Shown piece by piece: positions 28,135 through 58,239 of a DNA stretch of 64,000 nt. A program made the translations under genes and the position numbers. The DNA lies in assembly GCA_015061625.1 (NCBI GenBank), contig SUWG01000006.1, positions 1 to 64,000 of the forward strand, in the 5' to 3' direction. Source of the DNA: Lentisphaerota bacterium (GTDB lineage: Bacteria; Verrucomicrobiota; Lentisphaeria; Victivallales; Victivallaceae). How positions within the stretch are numbered: the stretch's first letter is position 1; each line of letters opens with the position of its first letter. The notes below the pieces were generated by a model. It was not told the origin of the DNA and did no database searches. It saw nothing but the letters and a program-made list of their open reading frames with translations.

Positions 28135-30975
28135 ATGATCGAAAATATCATTATCAAAGGCGCAAGTCAGCACAATCTGAAAAATGTGGATCTGACGATC
28201 CCCCGCAATCAACTGGTGGTCATCACCGGGTTATCCGGTTCGGGGAAATCTTCATTGGCTTTCGACACGCTCTACGCCGAGGGACAGCGGCGTTATGTGG
28301 AAAGTTTATCCGCCTACGCCCGGCAGTTCCTCGACCTGATGCAGAAACCCAAAGTCGAACATATCGAGGGTCTCGCTCCGGCTATCGCCATTGAGCAGCG
28401 CAGTGCCGGCGGCACCCCCCGCTCCACCGTGGCGACCGTAACGGAAATCTACGATTATCTGCGTCTGCTTTACACCCATTGCGGCACTCCGCACTGTCCG
28501 GAATGCGGCAAAGAACTCGCCTCGCAATCCGCCGAAGCGATCACCTTGCAACTGCTGGCTCTGGATGAGGGGATCAAACTTTCCATCCTCGCTCCGGTGG
28601 TTTCCGGACGCAAAGGCGAACACCGGGATATTCTGGAAAAGTTGCGCTCCGACGGCTTCGTCAGAGCAAGGATCGACGGCAAGATCGTGGTGCTGGAAGA
28701 TTTTGAAGATATCCCGGAAAAAAATCTGCGCCACACCATCGAAGCGGTCGTTGACCGCTTGAAAACCGGCAATATCGACCGTTCACGCCTGACCGATTCC
28801 GTGGAAACTGCCTTGAAACACGGCAACGGCGTTTTGACTGCGGTGATGGAAAAAGATGGTGAAACAACTGAAAAAAGTTTCTGTGAAAAACTGGCCTGTA
28901 TCGATTGCGGCATTTCTTTCGGTGAAATGCTGCCGAGAAACTTCAGTTTCAACTCCCCTTACGGCGCGTGCAAATGCTGTAACGGGCTGGGTATCCAACT
29001 GTGTATGGATCCGGAAAAGGTGGTTCCCGACCCCAAACTTTCCATAAAAAACGGAGCGATCCCCGGCTGGCGCAGAGGGCCCCGGCATCTTATCATATAT
29101 TACAATATGATGTTGCGCAAATTTTCCGAACAATTCGGTGACACTTCGCTATTGAGTGTGCCGTTTGAGAAACTGCCCGCCGACTTCAAAAAACAACTGC
29201 TTTTCGGCACCGGGGATAAAAATCTGGAATTCGACTACTATATGCACGGCAAAAAATATCACTGGGCCAAACCATTCGAGGGAGTGCTGGAAAATTTGCG
29301 CCGCCGCATGATCGAAACCGAGTCGGAATCGGTGAGGGAAAGACTGGCGGCTTACCAGAGTCCGCGCACCTGCCCGGAGTGTCACGGGGCAAGACTCAAT
29401 CCGGCGGCTCTCGCCGTCACCGTCGGCGGCAAAAATCTGGCGGAATTCAACGCCATGAGTATCGTTCAGGCCAGAGAATTCATCGGAAGTATGCAATTAT
29501 CCGCCGAACACACCGTGATCGCCGCCGATATCGTCAAAGAGATCCACAGCCGTCTGACCTTTCTCTGTGATGTGGGGTTGAATTATCTGACCCTTGACCG
29601 GGTGAGCAGTACCCTTTCCGGCGGCGAGGCCCAAAGAATAAGATTGGCTACTCAACTGGGGTGCGGTCTGGTCGGCGTATTGTATATTCTGGATGAACCA
29701 TCCATCGGTCTGCATCAGAAAGATAATGATATGCTCCTTGCCACGCTGGAAAAACTCCGCGATCTGGGCAACAGCGTAGTTGTGGTCGAGCATGACCTTG
29801 ACACGATCGCCAGAGCCGATTTCCTCGTCGATCTGGGCCCCGGTGCGGGAGTCAACGGCGGAGAGATCGTCGCCATCGGTACTCCGGCGCAGATCCCCGG
29901 ATTTCCCCGGTCGCTTACCGGAGATTTCCTCGCCGGCAGACGGCAGATCGCCATTCCGGAGCAGCGGCATCCGGGCAACGGCAAATTCATCACCGTCAAA
30001 AAAGCGGCGTTTCACAATTTGAAAAATGTGACCGTCAAATTCCCCCTCGGCACGCTGACTTGTGTCACCGGGGTTTCCGGTTCGGGGAAATCCTCGCTGG
30101 TCAATGGTATTTTAGTGCGTGCGCTCAATGCGGCCATGGATATCAAGGATGAGCCGGTCGGCAAATGTGAAGCCGTCGAAGGGCTGGAAAATGTGAATAA
30201 AGCGATCGTGATCGATCAAAGTCCCATCGGCCGCACACCCCGCTCCAATCCGGCGACTTACACCGGAGCATTTGACATTATCCGCAAACTTTTTTCGGAA
30301 TTGCCCGAAGCCAAAATGCGCGGATATTCCCCCGGCAGATTCAGTTTCAACGTCAAAGGCGGCCGCTGTGAGGAGTGTTCCGGTGACGGCATCAAGCGGA
30401 TCGAAATGCAGTTCTTGGCCGATGCCAATGTCACTTGCACCGCCTGCGGCGGCAAACGCTTCAACAATGAAACATTGATGGTGCGCTACAAAGGGTTGAA
30501 TATCCACGAAGTGCTGGAACTTTCCATCGATCAGGCCGTGGAATTATTTGCCACGATCACGCCGTTGAAACGCAAATTGCAGACCTTGCAGGATGTGGGG
30601 CTGGGATACTTGAAACTCGGTCAGAGTGCCACCACCTTATCCGGCGGCGAGGCCCAGAGAGTGAAACTGGCCGCCGAACTTTCCCGGATCCCCAGAGGAC
30701 ATACGGTATATATTCTGGATGAACCGACCACCGGACTGCATCTGGCGGATATCGACCAACTGCTCAAAGTGCTTTTCCGCCTGCGGGATATGGGCAACAG
30801 CGTGATCGTCATCGAACACAATCTGGATGTGATCAAAACCGCCGACCATATCATCGATATCGGTCCGGATGGCGGCGATGAGGGCGGCAGGATCGTGGCC
30901 ACCGGTACGCCGGAGGAGATCGCCGCCAAAAAGAACTCCCATACCGGGCGTTTTCTGAAACAGTATTTCAAGTAA
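28135..30975 (+). CDS. uvrA: UvrABC system protein A
   Basis: A 946-aa ABC-type DNA damage sensor for nucleotide excision repair. Walker A (1) [20 protein letters not shown] near the start; first zinc module CPECGK; signature [16 protein letters not shown] with [13 protein letters not shown]; Walker A (2) [13 protein letters not shown]; second zinc finger CEECSGDG and CTACGGKRF; signature (2) [16 protein letters not shown] and [14 protein letters not shown] chose ATG 28135, which follows the Nudix stop by one base; an upstream in-frame start lies inside the Nudix gene. Confidence 0.97.
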
Positions 30976-31053
30976 AATAAGGCACTTTTTACATAAATCT
31001 GCCAAACAGCCGTCGGGAAATTCAATTTTTTTCAAAAAATTTCATTTTTGCTC

Positions 31054-31082
31054 TTGCAAATTCATACTTCCGTGTGTATAAT
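31054..31082 (+). promoter_or_regulatory. Promoter of the frameshifted pseudopilin gene
   Basis: TTGCAA at 31054-31059, 17-bp spacer, perfect TATAAT at 31077-31082. The words CTCTTGCAAA and TATAAT are shared with the promoter of the second GntR-like gene at 61485-61516. Confidence 0.75.
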
Positions 31083-31132
31083 TAATCCAGGTTCCCTTCA
31101 AACAACCCTATTTTAAGAAAGGACAATGAAGC

Positions 31133-31892
31133 ATGTATTTACTCTCCAATTGGAGAGTAAACCTGCGCAGGTTTACTCTCCAATTGGAGAGTAAACCTGC
31201 GCAGGTTTACTCTGATCGAACTCCTCGTCGTCATCGCCATCATTGCAATTCTGGCGGCGATATTGCTCCCGGCCCTCAATTCCGCCCGTGAACGCGGCCG
31301 TGCTGCCAACTGTGTCAGCAATACCAAACAGATGGGTACGATGCTGCAAAACTACACCGCCGATCACGATGATTATGTGGTGACTGCCAAGCGTTACAAC
31401 AACTATACCTGGGCGGCACTCACCGTGGCTTATGGTTACCTGGAGCGCAATCTGCTCGTCTGTCCGTCAATCACTGATGGTGAATATGTTTCAACTCTTA
31501 CTCAATCCACGCCGGGAAAAAGCGGGGCGATGTGGCAGTGGAATTATGCGTTTTACGGCATAAACTGTGCCATAGGCAGCAATTCTGTTGAAACCAATGA
31601 TGAAACAACCGTACCGACATTGAAACTCAGCAGTGCCACTGTTCCCACTCAAACCATGGCGTTTGCCGACAGCTACTGCAGAGACATCGGTCAAACCCAC
31701 GGGTGGAGTCTGTTGTCGAAAAACGGTCTCGGCAGTGGCGGTATCGCAGAAAGGCACAACAATCAGGCGGCACTCGTTTTCCTCGATGGTCACACCGAGT
31801 TATGGGAAAAAGCCGACACCCGGGTACGTGGAGAAAGCAGCAGCGTTACCTATAAAGACCTCAAACATATGAATCCGCATTACTCCAATTGA
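31133..31892 (+). pseudogene. H-X9-DG pseudopilin, out of frame (possible phase-OFF state)
   Basis: The frame from 31211 on encodes [28 protein letters not shown] and the H-X9-DG motif ([14 protein letters not shown]) intact to the stop at 31892. At its N-terminus two 34-bp repeats (31146-31213) put the start codons out of frame. From ATG 31126 the frame stops at 31192-31194. ATG 31133, 9 nt after AAAGGA, also reads the wrong frame past the second repeat. With one repeat, ATG 31133 would give [20 protein letters not shown] in frame. No ATG, GTG or TTG serves the pilin frame as it stands. The promoter is perfect, so this looks like a recent or reversible event. The GH42-like gene starts 4 nt later. 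Confidence 0.8.
31138..31213. repeat. 34-bp tandem repeat made of alternating palindromes
   Basis: Arms TTTACTCT and its inverse AGAGTAAA alternate (three and two copies) around two self-complementary spacers, CCAATTGG and CCTGCGCAGG. So 31138-31161 is a perfect 24-bp palindrome and 31154-31179 a perfect 26-bp palindrome overlapping it, and the whole is duplicated (31146-31179, 31180-31213). The repeat lies in the codons just before FTLIELL. Confidence 0.9.
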
Positions 31893-31896
31893 TACT

Positions 31897-34800
31897 ATGA
31901 AAAAGTTTCTTTTTCTCTCTGTTTTTGCTGTTTTGACCGCGGCGGCGGCTGATCTTTCGGTTTTTCCGGAAAAAATGATCCATCCGATGACCGGATTCGA
32001 GCGCTGGCAGTGCGGCAAAGATGCCATTACCATGCTCCAAAACAAACCTTATGCGTGGAGTGCCACCGTGCCGGTGGCATTTGACGCTCCGGAGTACCGT
32101 TACTTCAATATGGAATTATCCGGCGACCGCGATGTCACCGACGGTATTCTTGCCATCTATTTCCTCAATGAGGGCGAGAGAAGTTTCCGTGATAACAAGT
32201 ACTGCCGCACCCGCTTTTCTCTGACCAAAGATAATAAAGCGGTCGTTTCGGTACCCCTGACCGGCAATGCATGGCAGGGCAAAATCACCGGATTCCGCTT
32301 CGATCTGGGCGGCGGCAAGAATGTGAATTGGCGGATCACCCGGATGTGGTTTTCCGAAGCACTCTCGCCGGATGCCAATGGGGACTTTTCAGTATTTCCC
32401 GGTTCAAGCCCCGTCCGGGCGATGGTGGGATTCAAAAGTTTTGTGCTCAGAGACGGTGCGATCCATGCCGAGCAGAGTCAGGCCTACTCCTACACTGCCG
32501 CAGTCACCCTGGGTATCAAGGCCGGAGATTACGGATTTTTCAACATCCTGGTCGAAAGCCCCACTGACGCTTCCGGTGAAGTAAGCCTTTACTTTACCCA
32601 TCCGGGCGAAAAAGGATTTTCCGCGGCAAACTATCTGCGGAGTGCTTTCAATGTGGAAGCCGGCAGATTGCAGGTAATTTCCATTCCGCTGAATAAATCC
32701 CAGTGGCAGGGGATCATCGCTTCATGCCGTTTTGACCTTTCCACCAAACCGGGGCAGCAGTGGATCATCCGCCGGGTGTGGTTTTCCAAAGACCGCCCGA
32801 TAGCATTCCGCAATACCCGGATGTATCTGCCGGTTGCCTCCGGGCAATCGGTGACGGAATTACGCTACGACTTGCTCTTTTCCAGACGTTACAGTTTTTC
32901 ATGGGATACTGCCGGGGCCCCCGGCAGTTGCACAGTAAAATTTTACGATGCCAATGACCGGTTGCTCGGTCAGGTAAACAATTCCGGAAAACCGGAACTT
33001 TTTTTTTCACCGCCTGATACCGCCACTTACTGCCGTATAGAAGTCACCGCCGGCAATGGCGAATTGAGCAATTTCAAACTCAAAGATGCCGGCAAAGCTC
33101 CCGGTGATGCCTGGCAATCAAACTGGATCTGCCATCCGCAGATACGCTCCACCAAAGGGGTCACTTACTTTGCCTACCGCCGTGACTTCGATCTGACTGC
33201 TCTGCCCGCAGAAGCGAGGATCCAGCTGACTGCCGATGACGGTCAATATATTTATATCAACGGGCAATACATCGGCGGCAGGGACTCCGGCTGGCAGCAG
33301 ACCGCACTTTATACGATCACCCCGCTGCTCAAAACCGGTAAAAACACCATCGAAATAAGAGTCCGTAACGAAAACGGCCCGACTGCTCTGATCGCCGAAG
33401 TGCGTCTGGATATGCCCGATGGTCAGACCGTGGTGATCCCCAGCGACAAAAATTACATAGTTGTCCCCATTGAGGATAAAATCGTGCCGGGCGGCGTGGA
33501 TTATTCCGGAGCCGTTGCCGCTTGTGAACTGGGCATCCCCCCGATCGCCCCGTGGCACAGCGTGGCATATTTCGCTTTGAAACGGCGCATACCGTTTCAG
33601 ATGACGGAGCAGAATTTGAAGTTTGAAAACGGCAGGATCACCGGTTCGATCAAACTGCAGAATCTCAATGACGGTACTATCCAACTGCAGATTTCCGGCG
33701 GAAATACCGTTTACGGCCGCTATCAGGCAAATATCCGGAATTCCATAGCGGAAGTGGATATCGATGTGGCGGATCTGCATCTTTTCCCCGGCGATTACAC
33801 GCTCTTTCCCGATCCGCAGTCTTTTGCCTGCGATACGCCGGTACTGACCTTTACGGTTCCCCGGTCTCCGGTAGAAACCGTGCCCCGTTTCAGTATGGAT
33901 AGTTCCCGCGGCTATGTGCAGTTGATGCGTAACGGCGAACCGGTGTGGATGGGTTTATTCAAATCCGCCCGCGAAAGCCAGTTGTCAGGTGCTTACTGGC
34001 AGGCGAATTACCGGATACTCTTTTTCGGCACCGCCATGGGGGGATCCAGCGGTTCCAATTCCGGCAGATACTGGCTCGGCCCGCAAAGGTACGATTTCAC
34101 TGACATCGATACCCGGCTTGAAGCATTCTTACGCAGATATCCGGATGCACTGCTGATCGTCACCGCCGGTATCGACGGACCGAAGTGGTGGTGCGATGCC
34201 CATCCGGAAGAGTGCGTCTGTTTTGAGAACTCCGGTCACCCGGAAGGCTTGACCAGTCCGGCATCCGCCCAATGGCGGCAATCCAGTACGGCGGCTTTCC
34301 GGGAACTGATCCGGCACATGGAAAAAAGTCCTTATGCTTCACGCATCATCGGCTACCGCATTCAGGCACATTGCGACGGCGGCGAATTTCAATATCTGGG
34401 TACCTGGCAGAATAAATATGCCGATTACAGTCCGGCAATGTTAAGTTATTTCCGGCAATTCCTCCGTGACCGCTATCAAACCGATGCGGCGTTGCAACAG
34501 GCCTGGCACAACCCATCCGTCACGCTGGATACGGCTCAAATCCCCACCGGCAGAGAACGGGCCGCAGCCGAGTTTTTCGTTTTCCGTGACATGGATAAGG
34601 CCAGAAATGTGATGGACTTCACCGACTGTCTCTCCGATGCGATGGTCACAGGAGCGATGCTCCATTTGCAGGTGATCCGGGATGAAGCACCGGGCAAACT
34701 GGCCGGACTTTACGGCGGATATGTATTCTTTTACGGCGGCTTCCAATTGCTCAACAGTTCCCATGCCAACTACGGCAAACTTTACCGCTCAAGACTGGCG

Positions 34801-35955
34801 GATTTCATCTGTTCACCGCAGGATTACTTCCAGCGGCGGGTCGGCTGGCCCGGTGGTCATCACGGCCCATCCGTGGGAACCCAGCTTTACAATTTGAGTT
34901 ACATGGATGAAAATGACACCCGTACCATCCTCTGTGCCCCCGGAGGATACCGGCACGTCGATTCCATGCACGAAACCATCGGCGTTCTGAAACGGGATTT
35001 CATTCTGCAATTGACCAAAGGTCTGGGCAATATTTTCTACGATCTGGCCGGCGGCTGGTTTGAGAATGATGCCATGCTCGATGCCATGCGGGTCATGAAT
35101 GAGATCGGGACAATGGCACAGAATATCCCCGGTTTCCGCCGGGGACAGGCGGCATTTCTGTACGATGCCGGTTCCATCCACCGTTTGAGTCTGCCCAATA
35201 CTCCCATCATCGACGCCATCCGCCGGGATATGCGGCGCAATCTGGGCTGGTCGGGCATCACCACCGATCAGTATCTGCTTGAGGATCTCATGCAGGACAA
35301 CTTCCCGGAATACGACTGCTATATCCTGCCCAATGTATTTGCCCCATCCGAAGCCATGCGGCAATTGATCGCTTCCAAACTCAATAAACCGGGCAAACTG
35401 ATAATTTTCGGTTATGCTCCGGGGGCATTCCGGGAAAATGCGGGCAGAATCGACCTTGAGGCCATGCGTGAATTGACCGGAATCAACTTCGGCGTGACCA
35501 TGGAAGAAGAAAAACGGCAGGTGCGTTTGAATGACGGTACGTCATTCGGTGACGGCAGTCAATTCGGTCCGGCCTTTTATATCGACGATCCCTCGGTGGA
35601 GGTGTTGGGCAGATTCACCCGGAATAACCGGGTGGCCATCGCCCGTAAACAACTGCCTTCCGGAGCGACGGTGATCGTAACGATGCTGCCGGAAATGACC
35701 CCGGCACTTTTCCGGAGCATTTTCCGTCAGCATAATATACACATATTCTGCGAGACAGAAGATCCGGTCTATTACGATGGCCGTTTCATTGCGATCCACG
35801 CCAATATCAGCGGCAAAAAAGTGTTGCGTCTGCCGGAGAACCGGCCGGTCTACGACCCGTTCCGCAAAAGGGTGGTCAGCAACGGCACGCAGGTCATCGA
35901 ATTGGAAATGGAGCGTGGACAAACGGAAATATTCATGCTTTCGCTCCCGCAATGA
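31897..35955 (+). CDS. Giant secreted GH42-like (GH-A clan) glycoside hydrolase
   Basis: A 1352-aa exported enzyme (signal peptide 1-18). Two tandem ~130-aa beta-sandwich repeats (about 19-153 and 161-297: SVFP...FRFDL...ITRMWFS and SVFP...CRFDL...IRRVWFS) are followed by a rhamnosidase-N-like lectin domain (about 410-530, ADDGQYIYINGQYIGG). A TIM-barrel catalytic region (about 650-1290) has GH42-like landmarks: RNGEPVWMGL, GPKWWCDAHPEE, IIGYRIQAHCDGGEF, FLRDRYQTDAALQQAW. The usual acid/base Asn-Glu after the IIGYxI strand is not present as NE; Glu in GGEF may replace it. It follows the frameshifted pseudopilin by 4 nt. Likely acts on galactoside- or rhamnose-containing glycan. Confidence 0.78.
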   Translation: MKKFLFLSVFAVLTAAAADLSVFPEKMIHPMTGFERWQCGKDAITMLQNKPYAWSATVPVAFDAPEYRYFNMELSGDRDVTDGILAIYFLNEGERSFRDNKYCRTRFSLTKDNKAVVSVPLTGNAWQGKITGFRFDLGGGKNVNWRITRMWFSEALSPDANGDFSVFPGSSPVRAMVGFKSFVLRDGAIHAEQSQAYSYTAAVTLGIKAGDYGFFNILVESPTDASGEVSLYFTHPGEKGFSAANYLRSAFNVEAGRLQVISIPLNKSQWQGIIASCRFDLSTKPGQQWIIRRVWFSKDRPIAFRNTRMYLPVASGQSVTELRYDLLFSRRYSFSWDTAGAPGSCTVKFYDANDRLLGQVNNSGKPELFFSPPDTATYCRIEVTAGNGELSNFKLKDAGKAPGDAWQSNWICHPQIRSTKGVTYFAYRRDFDLTALPAEARIQLTADDGQYIYINGQYIGGRDSGWQQTALYTITPLLKTGKNTIEIRVRNENGPTALIAEVRLDMPDGQTVVIPSDKNYIVVPIEDKIVPGGVDYSGAVAACELGIPPIAPWHSVAYFALKRRIPFQMTEQNLKFENGRITGSIKLQNLNDGTIQLQISGGNTVYGRYQANIRNSIAEVDIDVADLHLFPGDYTLFPDPQSFACDTPVLTFTVPRSPVETVPRFSMDSSRGYVQLMRNGEPVWMGLFKSARESQLSGAYWQANYRILFFGTAMGGSSGSNSGRYWLGPQRYDFTDIDTRLEAFLRRYPDALLIVTAGIDGPKWWCDAHPEECVCFENSGHPEGLTSPASAQWRQSSTAAFRELIRHMEKSPYASRIIGYRIQAHCDGGEFQYLGTWQNKYADYSPAMLSYFRQFLRDRYQTDAALQQAWHNPSVTLDTAQIPTGRERAAAEFFVFRDMDKARNVMDFTDCLSDAMVTGAMLHLQVIRDEAPGKLAGLYGGYVFFYGGFQLLNSSHANYGKLYRSRLADFICSPQDYFQRRVGWPGGHHGPSVGTQLYNLSYMDENDTRTILCAPGGYRHVDSMHETIGVLKRDFILQLTKGLGNIFYDLAGGWFENDAMLDAMRVMNEIGTMAQNIPGFRRGQAAFLYDAGSIHRLSLPNTPIIDAIRRDMRRNLGWSGITTDQYLLEDLMQDNFPEYDCYILPNVFAPSEAMRQLIASKLNKPGKLIIFGYAPGAFRENAGRIDLEAMRELTGINFGVTMEEEKRQVRLNDGTSFGDGSQFGPAFYIDDPSVEVLGRFTRNNRVAIARKQLPSGATVIVTMLPEMTPALFRSIFRQHNIHIFCETEDPVYYDGRFIAIHANISGKKVLRLPENRPVYDPFRKRVVSNGTQVIELEMERGQTEIFMLSLPQ

Positions 35956-48017: not shown

Positions 48018-48944
48018 TCACCATGCGCTTGCACCGTAGGAAGTGCGGCATCTCAAATAGTTGGTCTGATCATCCAGATAACCATCCTGCATTACTTCAC
48101 AATGCCCGTCTGCGGCAAGAGTATTCATTTTTCCGGCGTGAGGCGCACCGAGATAATGTTTATAGGGTGAACCGTAACCGAATTCAAACTTCCAATCCGG
48201 ATATTTATCCCCTTCTGCGACCAATATCGCCGTGGTCGGAGATTCCATGCGGCTCATTTTGCGGGGACTGAATGCTTCCTGACCGAATTTTTCACCGCGG
48301 CCGACATAATTGGAATATTGATAGGTGATGTTGTGATAAACTGATCCTCCGGAAAGATTACTGGCGGCCTCGCCCGTACCTTCCAGTGTCGGACACAGGA
48401 AATTACTGTCCGCTTTGTTACTGTCTGCCGTATCATCATCTTTGAACCAGCCGAATTTCCAATAACCGCTGCCGCCGATAAAATCATTGATCGAACTCAC
48501 CCAGTAACGGTAATTATCTCCCCACGGGATCTGCGCCCACGGCACCCAATCATCATAAGCATCGGCATAAAGCATGACCCCATTACCCATGGTTTTGATC
48601 TTGGCTGTACAATCTGCCGCCCGGCCGCGCTCTCTGGCAGAATTGAGTGCCGGAAGCAGAATGGCCGCCAGAATGGCGATAATCGCAATTACCACGAGCA
48701 ATTCTATCAAAGTGAATGCGCTCTTGGGAAGAGGGGAAAAACTTCTTTTCACGGGAAAAGAGGTTTTTCCCCTCTCCCCAAACCCCACTGCTCTTTTCAA
48801 GAAAAGCGGTATTCTTTGTTTAGTTTCAACTGCAGTTTTTTGTGTCAAAAAATGCAATGATGAGATAACTGTGCTTACAAGCAGTTCAATAAGAGTAAAC
48901 CGCATACGGTTTACTCCGGTATACCGGAGACCTTTTTTCATCAT
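48018..48944 (-). CDS. H-X9-DG pseudopilin with duplicated FTLIELL segment
   Basis: A 308-aa pilin-like protein with two prepilin signatures: residues 16-23 (FTLIELLV) and, 61 residues on, 77-96 ([20 protein letters not shown]), which is the complete hydrophobic helix. Between them is a basic insert ([20 protein letters not shown] onward) that breaks the first helix. The C-terminal domain ends with His269-X9-Asp279-Gly. GGAAAGGA lies 8 nt before the ATG at 48944. The codons before the first FTLIELL contain the palindromes CTCCGGTATACCGGAG and GAGTAAACCG/CGGTTTACTC. It is the first gene of a five-gene operon divergent from the AraC regulator. Confidence 0.85.
48731..48774. repeat. 20-bp-arm inverted repeat inside the pseudopilin insert
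   Basis: GAGGGGAAAAACTTCTTTTC (48731-48750) pairs with 48755-48774 with one G-T wobble around a 4-nt loop. It lies exactly in the extra segment between the two FTLIELL copies. Confidence 0.85.
48893..48929. repeat. Double palindrome in pseudopilin N-terminal codons
   Basis: GAGTAAACCG-CATA-CGGTTTACTC (48893-48916) overlaps CTCCGGTATACCGGAG (48914-48929, perfect 16 bp). Same layout as at 31138-31179 and 58194-58229. Confidence 0.85.
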
Positions 48945-57474: not shown

Positions 57475-58239
57475 TCACCAGGTGTGACCCTCTTTGTCAG
57501 CCTCATAGTAATAACATTTGTCGGTACTGGTGGAGTATTTCCATACTTCATCAAGTTTGCGCATGGAAACTGATCCATCGCACCAGGTGAATCCGCTGTT
57601 GCCCTGATGACGCTGATCACGGATCTTGTCACCGGCAGTATGCCGCGGACAGGCACCGGTCGGATGGGTGGTTTCTGAACCGGGAATAGCATAAATATTA
57701 TCCTGAAACATGATCGTTTGACTGGGAGCCTGAATAGTCACCCGTTTACGCGGCGGCTGAACACCATTGGCGACCATCATGTGACGGTTGTATCCGTAAG
57801 TAACTTCCGTTTTGACGGTGTAAGTATCACCGTTACTGCCGATATATCCGTACCAGATACCATAAACCGCCATATCATCAGCCGGCCGGGTCGGTTCGAT
57901 CGTGGCACTCGGACAGGCGGCCAATTCCGAAAAAGAGTAAATCGTGCCGGTGCCGCCATGCAAAAATGAGTACAAAGCACCGACATAATAGAGCGTATTA
58001 CCGGTAATCGTGGATGAGTGCGGCAATACATGATCGTCGTAGGCATCGGCATACATGGCCGTTTGAGTGCCGAGTTGTTTGAGGTTGTTCACGCAACTTG
58101 CCTGACGGCCGCGTTCACGGGCGGAATTGAGTGCCGGAAGCAGAATTGCCGCCAGAATGGCGATGATCGCAATGACCACGAGCAGTTCGATAAGAGTAAA
58201 CCGTCTACGGTTTACTCCACCATGGTGGAACTTTTTCAT
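57475..58239 (-). CDS. H-X9-DG pseudopilin
   Basis: A 254-aa pilin-like protein: [13 protein letters not shown], then [20 protein letters not shown] (14-33) and [12 protein letters not shown]; globular C-terminal part ending in His211-X9-Asp221-Gly ([13 protein letters not shown]). Arg, not Gly, precedes the Phe. The codons for [11 protein letters not shown] are two palindromes (see 58194-58229). AAAGGGAAAG precedes the ATG. It lies 73 nt after the GntR/LacI-like regulator and 366 nt before the 1269-aa hydrolase, all on the minus strand. Confidence 0.9.
58194..58229. repeat. Double palindrome in pseudopilin N-terminal codons
   Basis: GAGTAAACCG-TCTA-CGGTTTACTC (58194-58217) overlaps TCCACCATGGTGGA (58216-58229). 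The TTTACTC/GAGTAAA arms are the same as at 31138-31213 and 48893-48916, although spacers and neighbouring codons differ. Confidence 0.85.

Follow-up and report, generated by a model that had tools for sequence, protein, structure and literature searches.

Duplication of a 34-nucleotide palindromic leader unit closes pilin reading frames in a Lentisphaerota bacterium

Introduction

A pilin gene of a Lentisphaerota bacterium combines an open body with start codons that lie out of frame, and a short tandem duplication stands between the two. Is such a gene dead, is it a product of faulty assembly, or is it one state of a gene that can be opened again? The gene lies in the window, a stretch of 64,000 nucleotides on contig C26; the draft genome to which this contig belongs has 44 contigs totalling 2,705,441 bases. 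The original prediction treated it as an oddity of a single gene. This view did not survive the comparison with other genes, because the leader is one of a large palindromic family and at least 12 further pilin genes carry an exact duplication. We describe the anatomy of the leader unit, its distribution and its duplication, and we discuss how the closed state may arise and be lost.

The leader of the window gene

The leader consists of two identical 34-nt units on the forward strand, each a double palindrome, at 31138-31171 and 31172-31205 (matches to a covariance model of the unit fall in a shifted register, 31145-31178 and 31179-31212). The two copies had been predicted at 31146-31213, which is an equivalent register: the period of 34 is exact over 31138-31213 and extends 8 nt past two copies. 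Each unit is made up of TTTACTC, a 10-nt palindromic tip, GAGTAAA and another palindromic tip of 10 nt. The array closes in TTTACTC, the first of the FTLIELL codons, which begin at 31206. The duplication produces a perfect palindrome of 60 nt (31154-31213), and a further perfect palindrome of 58 nt occupies 31138-31195. The predicted RNA fold of the array has z = -8.61 and was equalled by 0 of 200 shuffles, so it is not due to chance.

The signals upstream read as the original prediction had them. The promoter-like sequence TTGCAA-17-TATAAT (31054-31082, forward strand, with TTGCAA at 31054 and TATAAT at 31077) is a consensus match only. The ribosome-binding-like AAAGGA at 31118-31123 on the same strand precedes two ATG codons, by 2 nt at 31126-31128 and by 9 nt at 31133-31135. 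By position arithmetic, the second ATG lies 73 nt (34+39) from the FTL codons and is in frame with the pilin body at one unit, which bears out the claim that removing one copy restores the frame. The first ATG, whose frame the earlier account did not consider, lies 80 nt (68+12) from the FTL codons; it is in frame at zero units and out of frame at one. With two units both are out of frame, as had been proposed. The FTL frame is open for 15 codons upstream, none of which is ATG, GTG or TTG, and is then closed. A unit of 34 nt is no whole number of codons, so the pilin frame is closed with two units and open with one.

The body of the gene is open for 228 codons from FTLIELL to the stop codon at 31890-31892 (31206-31892, forward strand), with no in-frame start upstream, and it keeps the H-x9-DG motif, so the downstream frame is as intact as was claimed. 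The Pfam families N_methyl and DUF1559 both score just under their cut-offs. A gene for a GH42-like protein of 1352 aa (31897-35955, forward strand) starts with ATG at 31897 after the expected 4-nt gap, and Glyco_hydro_42 exceeds its cut-off there. Two different pilin genes on the reverse strand of the window have one-unit leaders that are in frame, at 48893-48926, with a cassette downstream, and at 58194-58227.

A family of palindromic leaders

The genome encodes FTLIEL at 91 sites, all of which were extracted. A lattice of 34 nt, scored over its 24 possible pairs, is recognisable at 39 of the 91 (score of at least 14), a figure that leaves out 31-nt-spaced versions of the same palindromes (e.g. 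L032, L077 and L080); the other 52 sites score 10 or less. Out of 14 possible arm pairs, a mean of 6.93 form in register, compared with 3.46-4.42 when the register is slid. The leaders fall into two classes. Class I leaders have a downstream hairpin fully paired with the FTL codons and an upstream tip that is a perfect palindrome, while class II leaders have a complete upstream hairpin and show the perfect palindrome in the downstream tip. Class II looks like class I in reverse.

Pairing is maintained although the letters change. In 50 class I leaders, taken from 13 genomes and preselected by their arm pairs and by 3 or more of the 5 first-tip pairs, 93.1% of cells pair, compared with 71.2% in shuffles, and two-sided changes number 194, compared with 60.6. 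These 50 were aligned from 53 distinct leaders; L052, L058 and L070 were dropped, their tips being less well paired. A second set, chosen without a tip filter, comprises one-unit sites with 6/7 or more arm pairs, 26 of them own and 54 other. In this set, Watson-Crick pairs occupy the three outer positions of the second tip in 73/78 own and 160/162 other cells. In the first tip, a hairpin could not form the two innermost pairs; these are Watson-Crick in 47/52 own and 96/108 other cells, and G-U accounts for only 4/130 own and 3/270 other cells of that tip. Since symmetry reaches these innermost pairs and G-U is rare, the strong Watson-Crick covariation favours a DNA palindrome over an RNA-folding function. 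Such DNA symmetry would be expected if template switching keeps the arms identical. The tips differ freely between leaders, and the sequence is not conserved. A known structured RNA family was also considered and rejected: a search of Rfam over 30900-31500 returned 15 matches at E up to 1, none at gathering score.

The covariance model of the unit has matches in 22 of 34 congeneric genomes, and in 30 of the 78 genomes of the family, where they are spread over 4 of 19 genera. The 63 matches in the window's own genome reduce by reading to 31 loci, many matches being one palindrome on both strands. Thirty of these loci adjoin FTLIEL codons. The remaining one (G000:C10:62959; L285:948 onward) opens a non-pilin gene, and the unit is thus not confined to pilins. 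The product of this gene begins MTKLHHGGVRQYC..., has a hydrophobic stretch and a CBM_4_9 domain, and looks like an exported protein with a carbohydrate-binding domain. Further afield, a search with UvrA gave 79 loci, some of them from Lentisphaerae and Victivallis MAGs; the 38 of these that were scanned contain nine FTLIEL sites, and none of the nine has the lattice. A search with the GH protein for a second assembly of the same species found no relative among records from which those nearest the window's genome may be excluded.

In many pilin genes there is also a cassette of about 180-186 nt, in frame, in which the FTLIELL codons are repeated, as at 48700-48899 on the reverse strand of the window. 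The carriers are L007, L012, L014, L026, L030, L040, L041, L054, L058, L062, L064, L072 and L075, and other genomes of the genus have it at L113, L186 and L214. A third leader cassette sits at contig ends (L024, L034, L055, L076 and L292), and its repeats therefore appear to break the assembly.

Recurrence of the duplication

A search for tandem periods of 24-45 over 146 FTLIEL sites yielded ten arrays, every one with period 34 and two copies; in one of them (G003:C73) the first copy is interrupted by the contig start. Adjacent model matches gave three more arrays, G005:C47, G004:C48 and G004:C109. At least 13 two-unit pilin genes are therefore present in 7 of the 34 congeneric genomes: three each in G003 and G007, two each in G000, the window's genome, and G004, and one each in G005, G006 and G010. 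Counted per genome, the model matches total 671 on both strands, and the 13 genes are a lower bound. They do not include the arrays of G004:C72 and G007:C5, which hold 100-N gaps inside their units. The unit letters differ among the 13 genes.

The effect on the frame is uniform. The FTL frame is closed in all 13 two-unit genes, whereas one-unit lattice leaders are open in 92 of 93 cases. In all 37 own leaders among these the inverted repeat lies in frame within open coding sequence; 55 of 56 leaders from other genomes are open, a biased sample partly picked for lattice or tandem matches, from which 11 of the 13 two-unit cases also come. An ATG is in frame with the first unit at all 12 two-unit loci that have upstream sequence (the 13th starts at a contig end). 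Among the 12 bodies that are not cut by a contig end, 11 are open, and that of G003:C2 has an extra frame break in its later part. As in contingency loci, a unit that is not a multiple of 3 stands at the coding start, its copy number sets the frame, and the rest of the gene is intact in the window and in 11 of 12 genes over all.

Within the window's genome, only 2 of the 91 FTLIEL sites have no start at least 6 nt upstream (a stricter rule of 30 nt closes ten further non-lattice sites). These are the window gene and L026, and both are 34-bp duplications. A short body or a missing start is seen in this genome at these two sites, at L021, at four sites that are cut at contig ends and at the non-pilin L073. 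L021 (G000:C5:48261), in which a truncated FTLIDFK reading frame comes after a leader cassette, is probably the remnant of a pilin.

At several two-unit loci the non-palindromic tips repeat in the same orientation, which indicates a direct duplication; growth of the array by fold-back, with an inverted copy, is rejected on the same ground. Direct repeats of 1-8 nt, 34 nt apart, already flank the palindromes of one-unit leaders. They are not significantly longer at two-unit loci (12 compared with 92, p = 0.11), and longer flanking repeats are unsupported as a driver of duplication.

Orthologs and a possible exchange of leaders

Orthologs of the GH gene were found at five loci, at 45-56% identity. 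The neighbouring pilin is visible at four of these (G010, G017, G005 and G022), and in all four it is open behind a unit-type leader, a cassette, or both; at the fifth, in G012, the stretch fetched has no FTLIEL site. The two-unit pilin L198 (G007:C43) has one-unit, open relatives in G000, G021 and G023 and a relative in G004 whose leader is a cassette, and a second G023 match has no FTLIEL site. For L026, the relative in G006 (45%) is open with one short unit, the relative in G007:C11 (44%) has two units with other letters, and the closest, in G021 (84%), lacks its leader since the contig starts inside the body. Copy number differs between paralogs and between orthologs of different species, and no gene of one strain is present with both one and two units; a three-unit array, which the original prediction had envisaged, does not occur among the matches listed. 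Because the orthologous pilins either have an open frame, behind one unit or a cassette, or carry two units of other letters, the two-unit state seems to arise repeatedly and not to be inherited with the gene.

The bodies of L294, L295, L296, L292 and L198 are related (about 41-46% identity to that of L198), and their leaders are variously a class I unit, a class II unit or a cassette, as if leaders were replaced independently of pilin bodies. Two contigs of G010, C17 (L182) and C28 (L183), have exactly 127 nt of promoter and leader in common, ending at arm X, the TTTACTC of the FTL codons. Beyond this point L182 has two units and one pilin body, and L183 has one unit and a different body. Assemblers commonly set their largest k to 127, so the divergence has the look of an assembly-graph fork. 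Its two branches lead to different bodies and do not form a clean ON/OFF pair.

Possible mechanism and alternative explanations

We propose that the palindromic leader is prone to slippage, that its duplication closes the pilin frame, and that the duplication could revert; we give this reading a probability of about 0.6. Slippage and reversal are inferred from the anatomy of the unit. Arm X would pair with the complementary arm Y (GAGTAAA) around a 10-nt tip in each case, and the full or partial copy of X exactly 34 nt upstream would provide a second site of annealing. The unit may fold into hairpins during replication and the strand re-anneal on the other X, and the unit would then be copied twice by hairpin-assisted slippage. 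Two perfect 34-bp repeats could drop one copy through the same slippage, and the closed allele should then be revertible. Gain of a unit would presumably cost the cell the pilin product and its loss would restore it, which would amount to ON/OFF switching of the pilin. Template-switch correction probably keeps the palindromes perfect.

Other explanations account for parts of this picture. The duplication may be an ordinary recent loss-of-function mutation of a dying or dead gene, not usefully reversed. The broken body of G003:C2 and the redundancy of pilins in the genome fit a dying gene, but one exact type of mutation recurs, no other leader-closing mutation is seen in the window's genome, and 11 of 12 bodies are open, even if a recent origin could still account for the intact bodies; we consider this explanation rather unlikely. 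A selected phase-variable switch is also possible, hairpin leaders being kept since random ON/OFF switching of single pilins would benefit the cell. Surface proteins are the usual targets of phase switching, the unit occurs at 39 of 91 own FTLIEL sites, and OFF alleles recur in 13 genes with mostly intact bodies. However, neither a reversal nor a mixture of states is seen in the assemblies, the model has no match in 12 of the 34 congeneric genomes, and a mutational by-product accounts for the same pattern, which makes selection for switching an unlikely, tentative proposal. Its genome-wide form is equally doubtful: a self-homogenising unit on dozens of pilins, each switched independently by gain or loss of 34 bp, would give combinatorial surface variation in gut Victivallaceae.

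The unit could also be a recombination site that swaps leaders and pilin bodies, with two units as a recombined junction. The fork in G010, the different leader types on orthologous bodies and the unit in a non-pilin gene agree with such exchange. The fork is single, however, duplicated upstream regions at two loci would fit it as well, and unit letters differ among genes; recombination at the unit is improbable as the source of the arrays. An artefact, in which the assembler or amplification made the second unit at a palindrome, is still more improbable. All sequences are draft assemblies, contigs start or hold 100-N gaps within such arrays, and the fully palindromic window array could not by itself exclude an artefact, but non-palindromic tips in direct orientation need a real junction and the period of 34 recurs in 7 independent genomes. 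Least credible of all is translation of the two-unit message by ribosomes that bypass or frameshift over the hairpins. The strong predicted fold and the identical X letters on either side of the extra unit would suit bypassing, but the symmetry covers tip pairs that are impossible in RNA, G-U pairs are few, and no Rfam family reaches gathering score in the region around the array.

Relation to known systems

The slippage-prone leader that we favour has counterparts among phase-variable genes. In Streptococcus pneumoniae, cap8E and tts, two genes of the capsule, reportedly undergo phase variation by spontaneous sequence duplication (Waite et al. 2003). As in the pilin leader, a tandem duplication lies in coding sequence, and in S. 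pneumoniae it turns the surface trait off until loss of the copy restores it. The cap8E and tts duplications vary in length and place, whereas one fixed 34-bp palindromic unit serves many paralogs here and its reversal is conjectural. In Moraxella, Piv-type inversion rearranges DNA within the conserved 5' region of pilin genes, the region in which the 34-nt unit lies here. Such a switch would join one promoter to alternative pilin bodies by an invertible segment; what the assemblies offer in this respect is the single 127-nt fork in G010, and no inversion was noticed. The titles and abstract beginnings that were searched do not describe a 34-nt palindromic pilin leader. Frame closure driven by duplication is of a known kind; its palindromic leader-unit version may be new.

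Palindromes inside genes are known from other organisms. In Rickettsia and Wolbachia, protein-coding palindromic repeats occur, and the Rickettsia elements (RPEs) are 105-146 bp long and fused to various genes (PMC2229807). They resemble the pilin unit as inverted-repeat elements within coding sequence. The pilin unit differs from such elements, whose copies, about 100-150 bp long, resemble each other in sequence and are spread over many unrelated genes: it has 34 bp and an unconserved sequence, and 30 of 31 own loci stand beside pilin FTLIEL codons. Mitochondrial genes of Nematomorpha contain coding palindromes of up to 284 bp, for which template switching is discussed as a means of maintenance (PMC6649704). 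These too are perfect palindromes kept in translated genes, but they are mitochondrial and are not described as a common leader unit or as variable in copy number. Template switching reportedly makes and repairs perfect stems and homogenises repeat arms inside genes (PMC8794818, PMC8604942). Upkeep of hairpins by this route would account for the two-sided Watson-Crick changes with few G-U intermediates. The two reports concern RNA genes and yeast genes, and not a bacterial leader family.

Significance

Should the duplication revert, dozens of pilins of this little-known gut lineage would each be switchable on its own via a palindrome, a type of repeat that is not normally listed with contingency loci. 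Even if no switching occurs, the leader is conserved in its DNA symmetry and not in its sequence. It thereby offers a natural test of template switching against RNA selection in the upkeep of palindromes inside genes.
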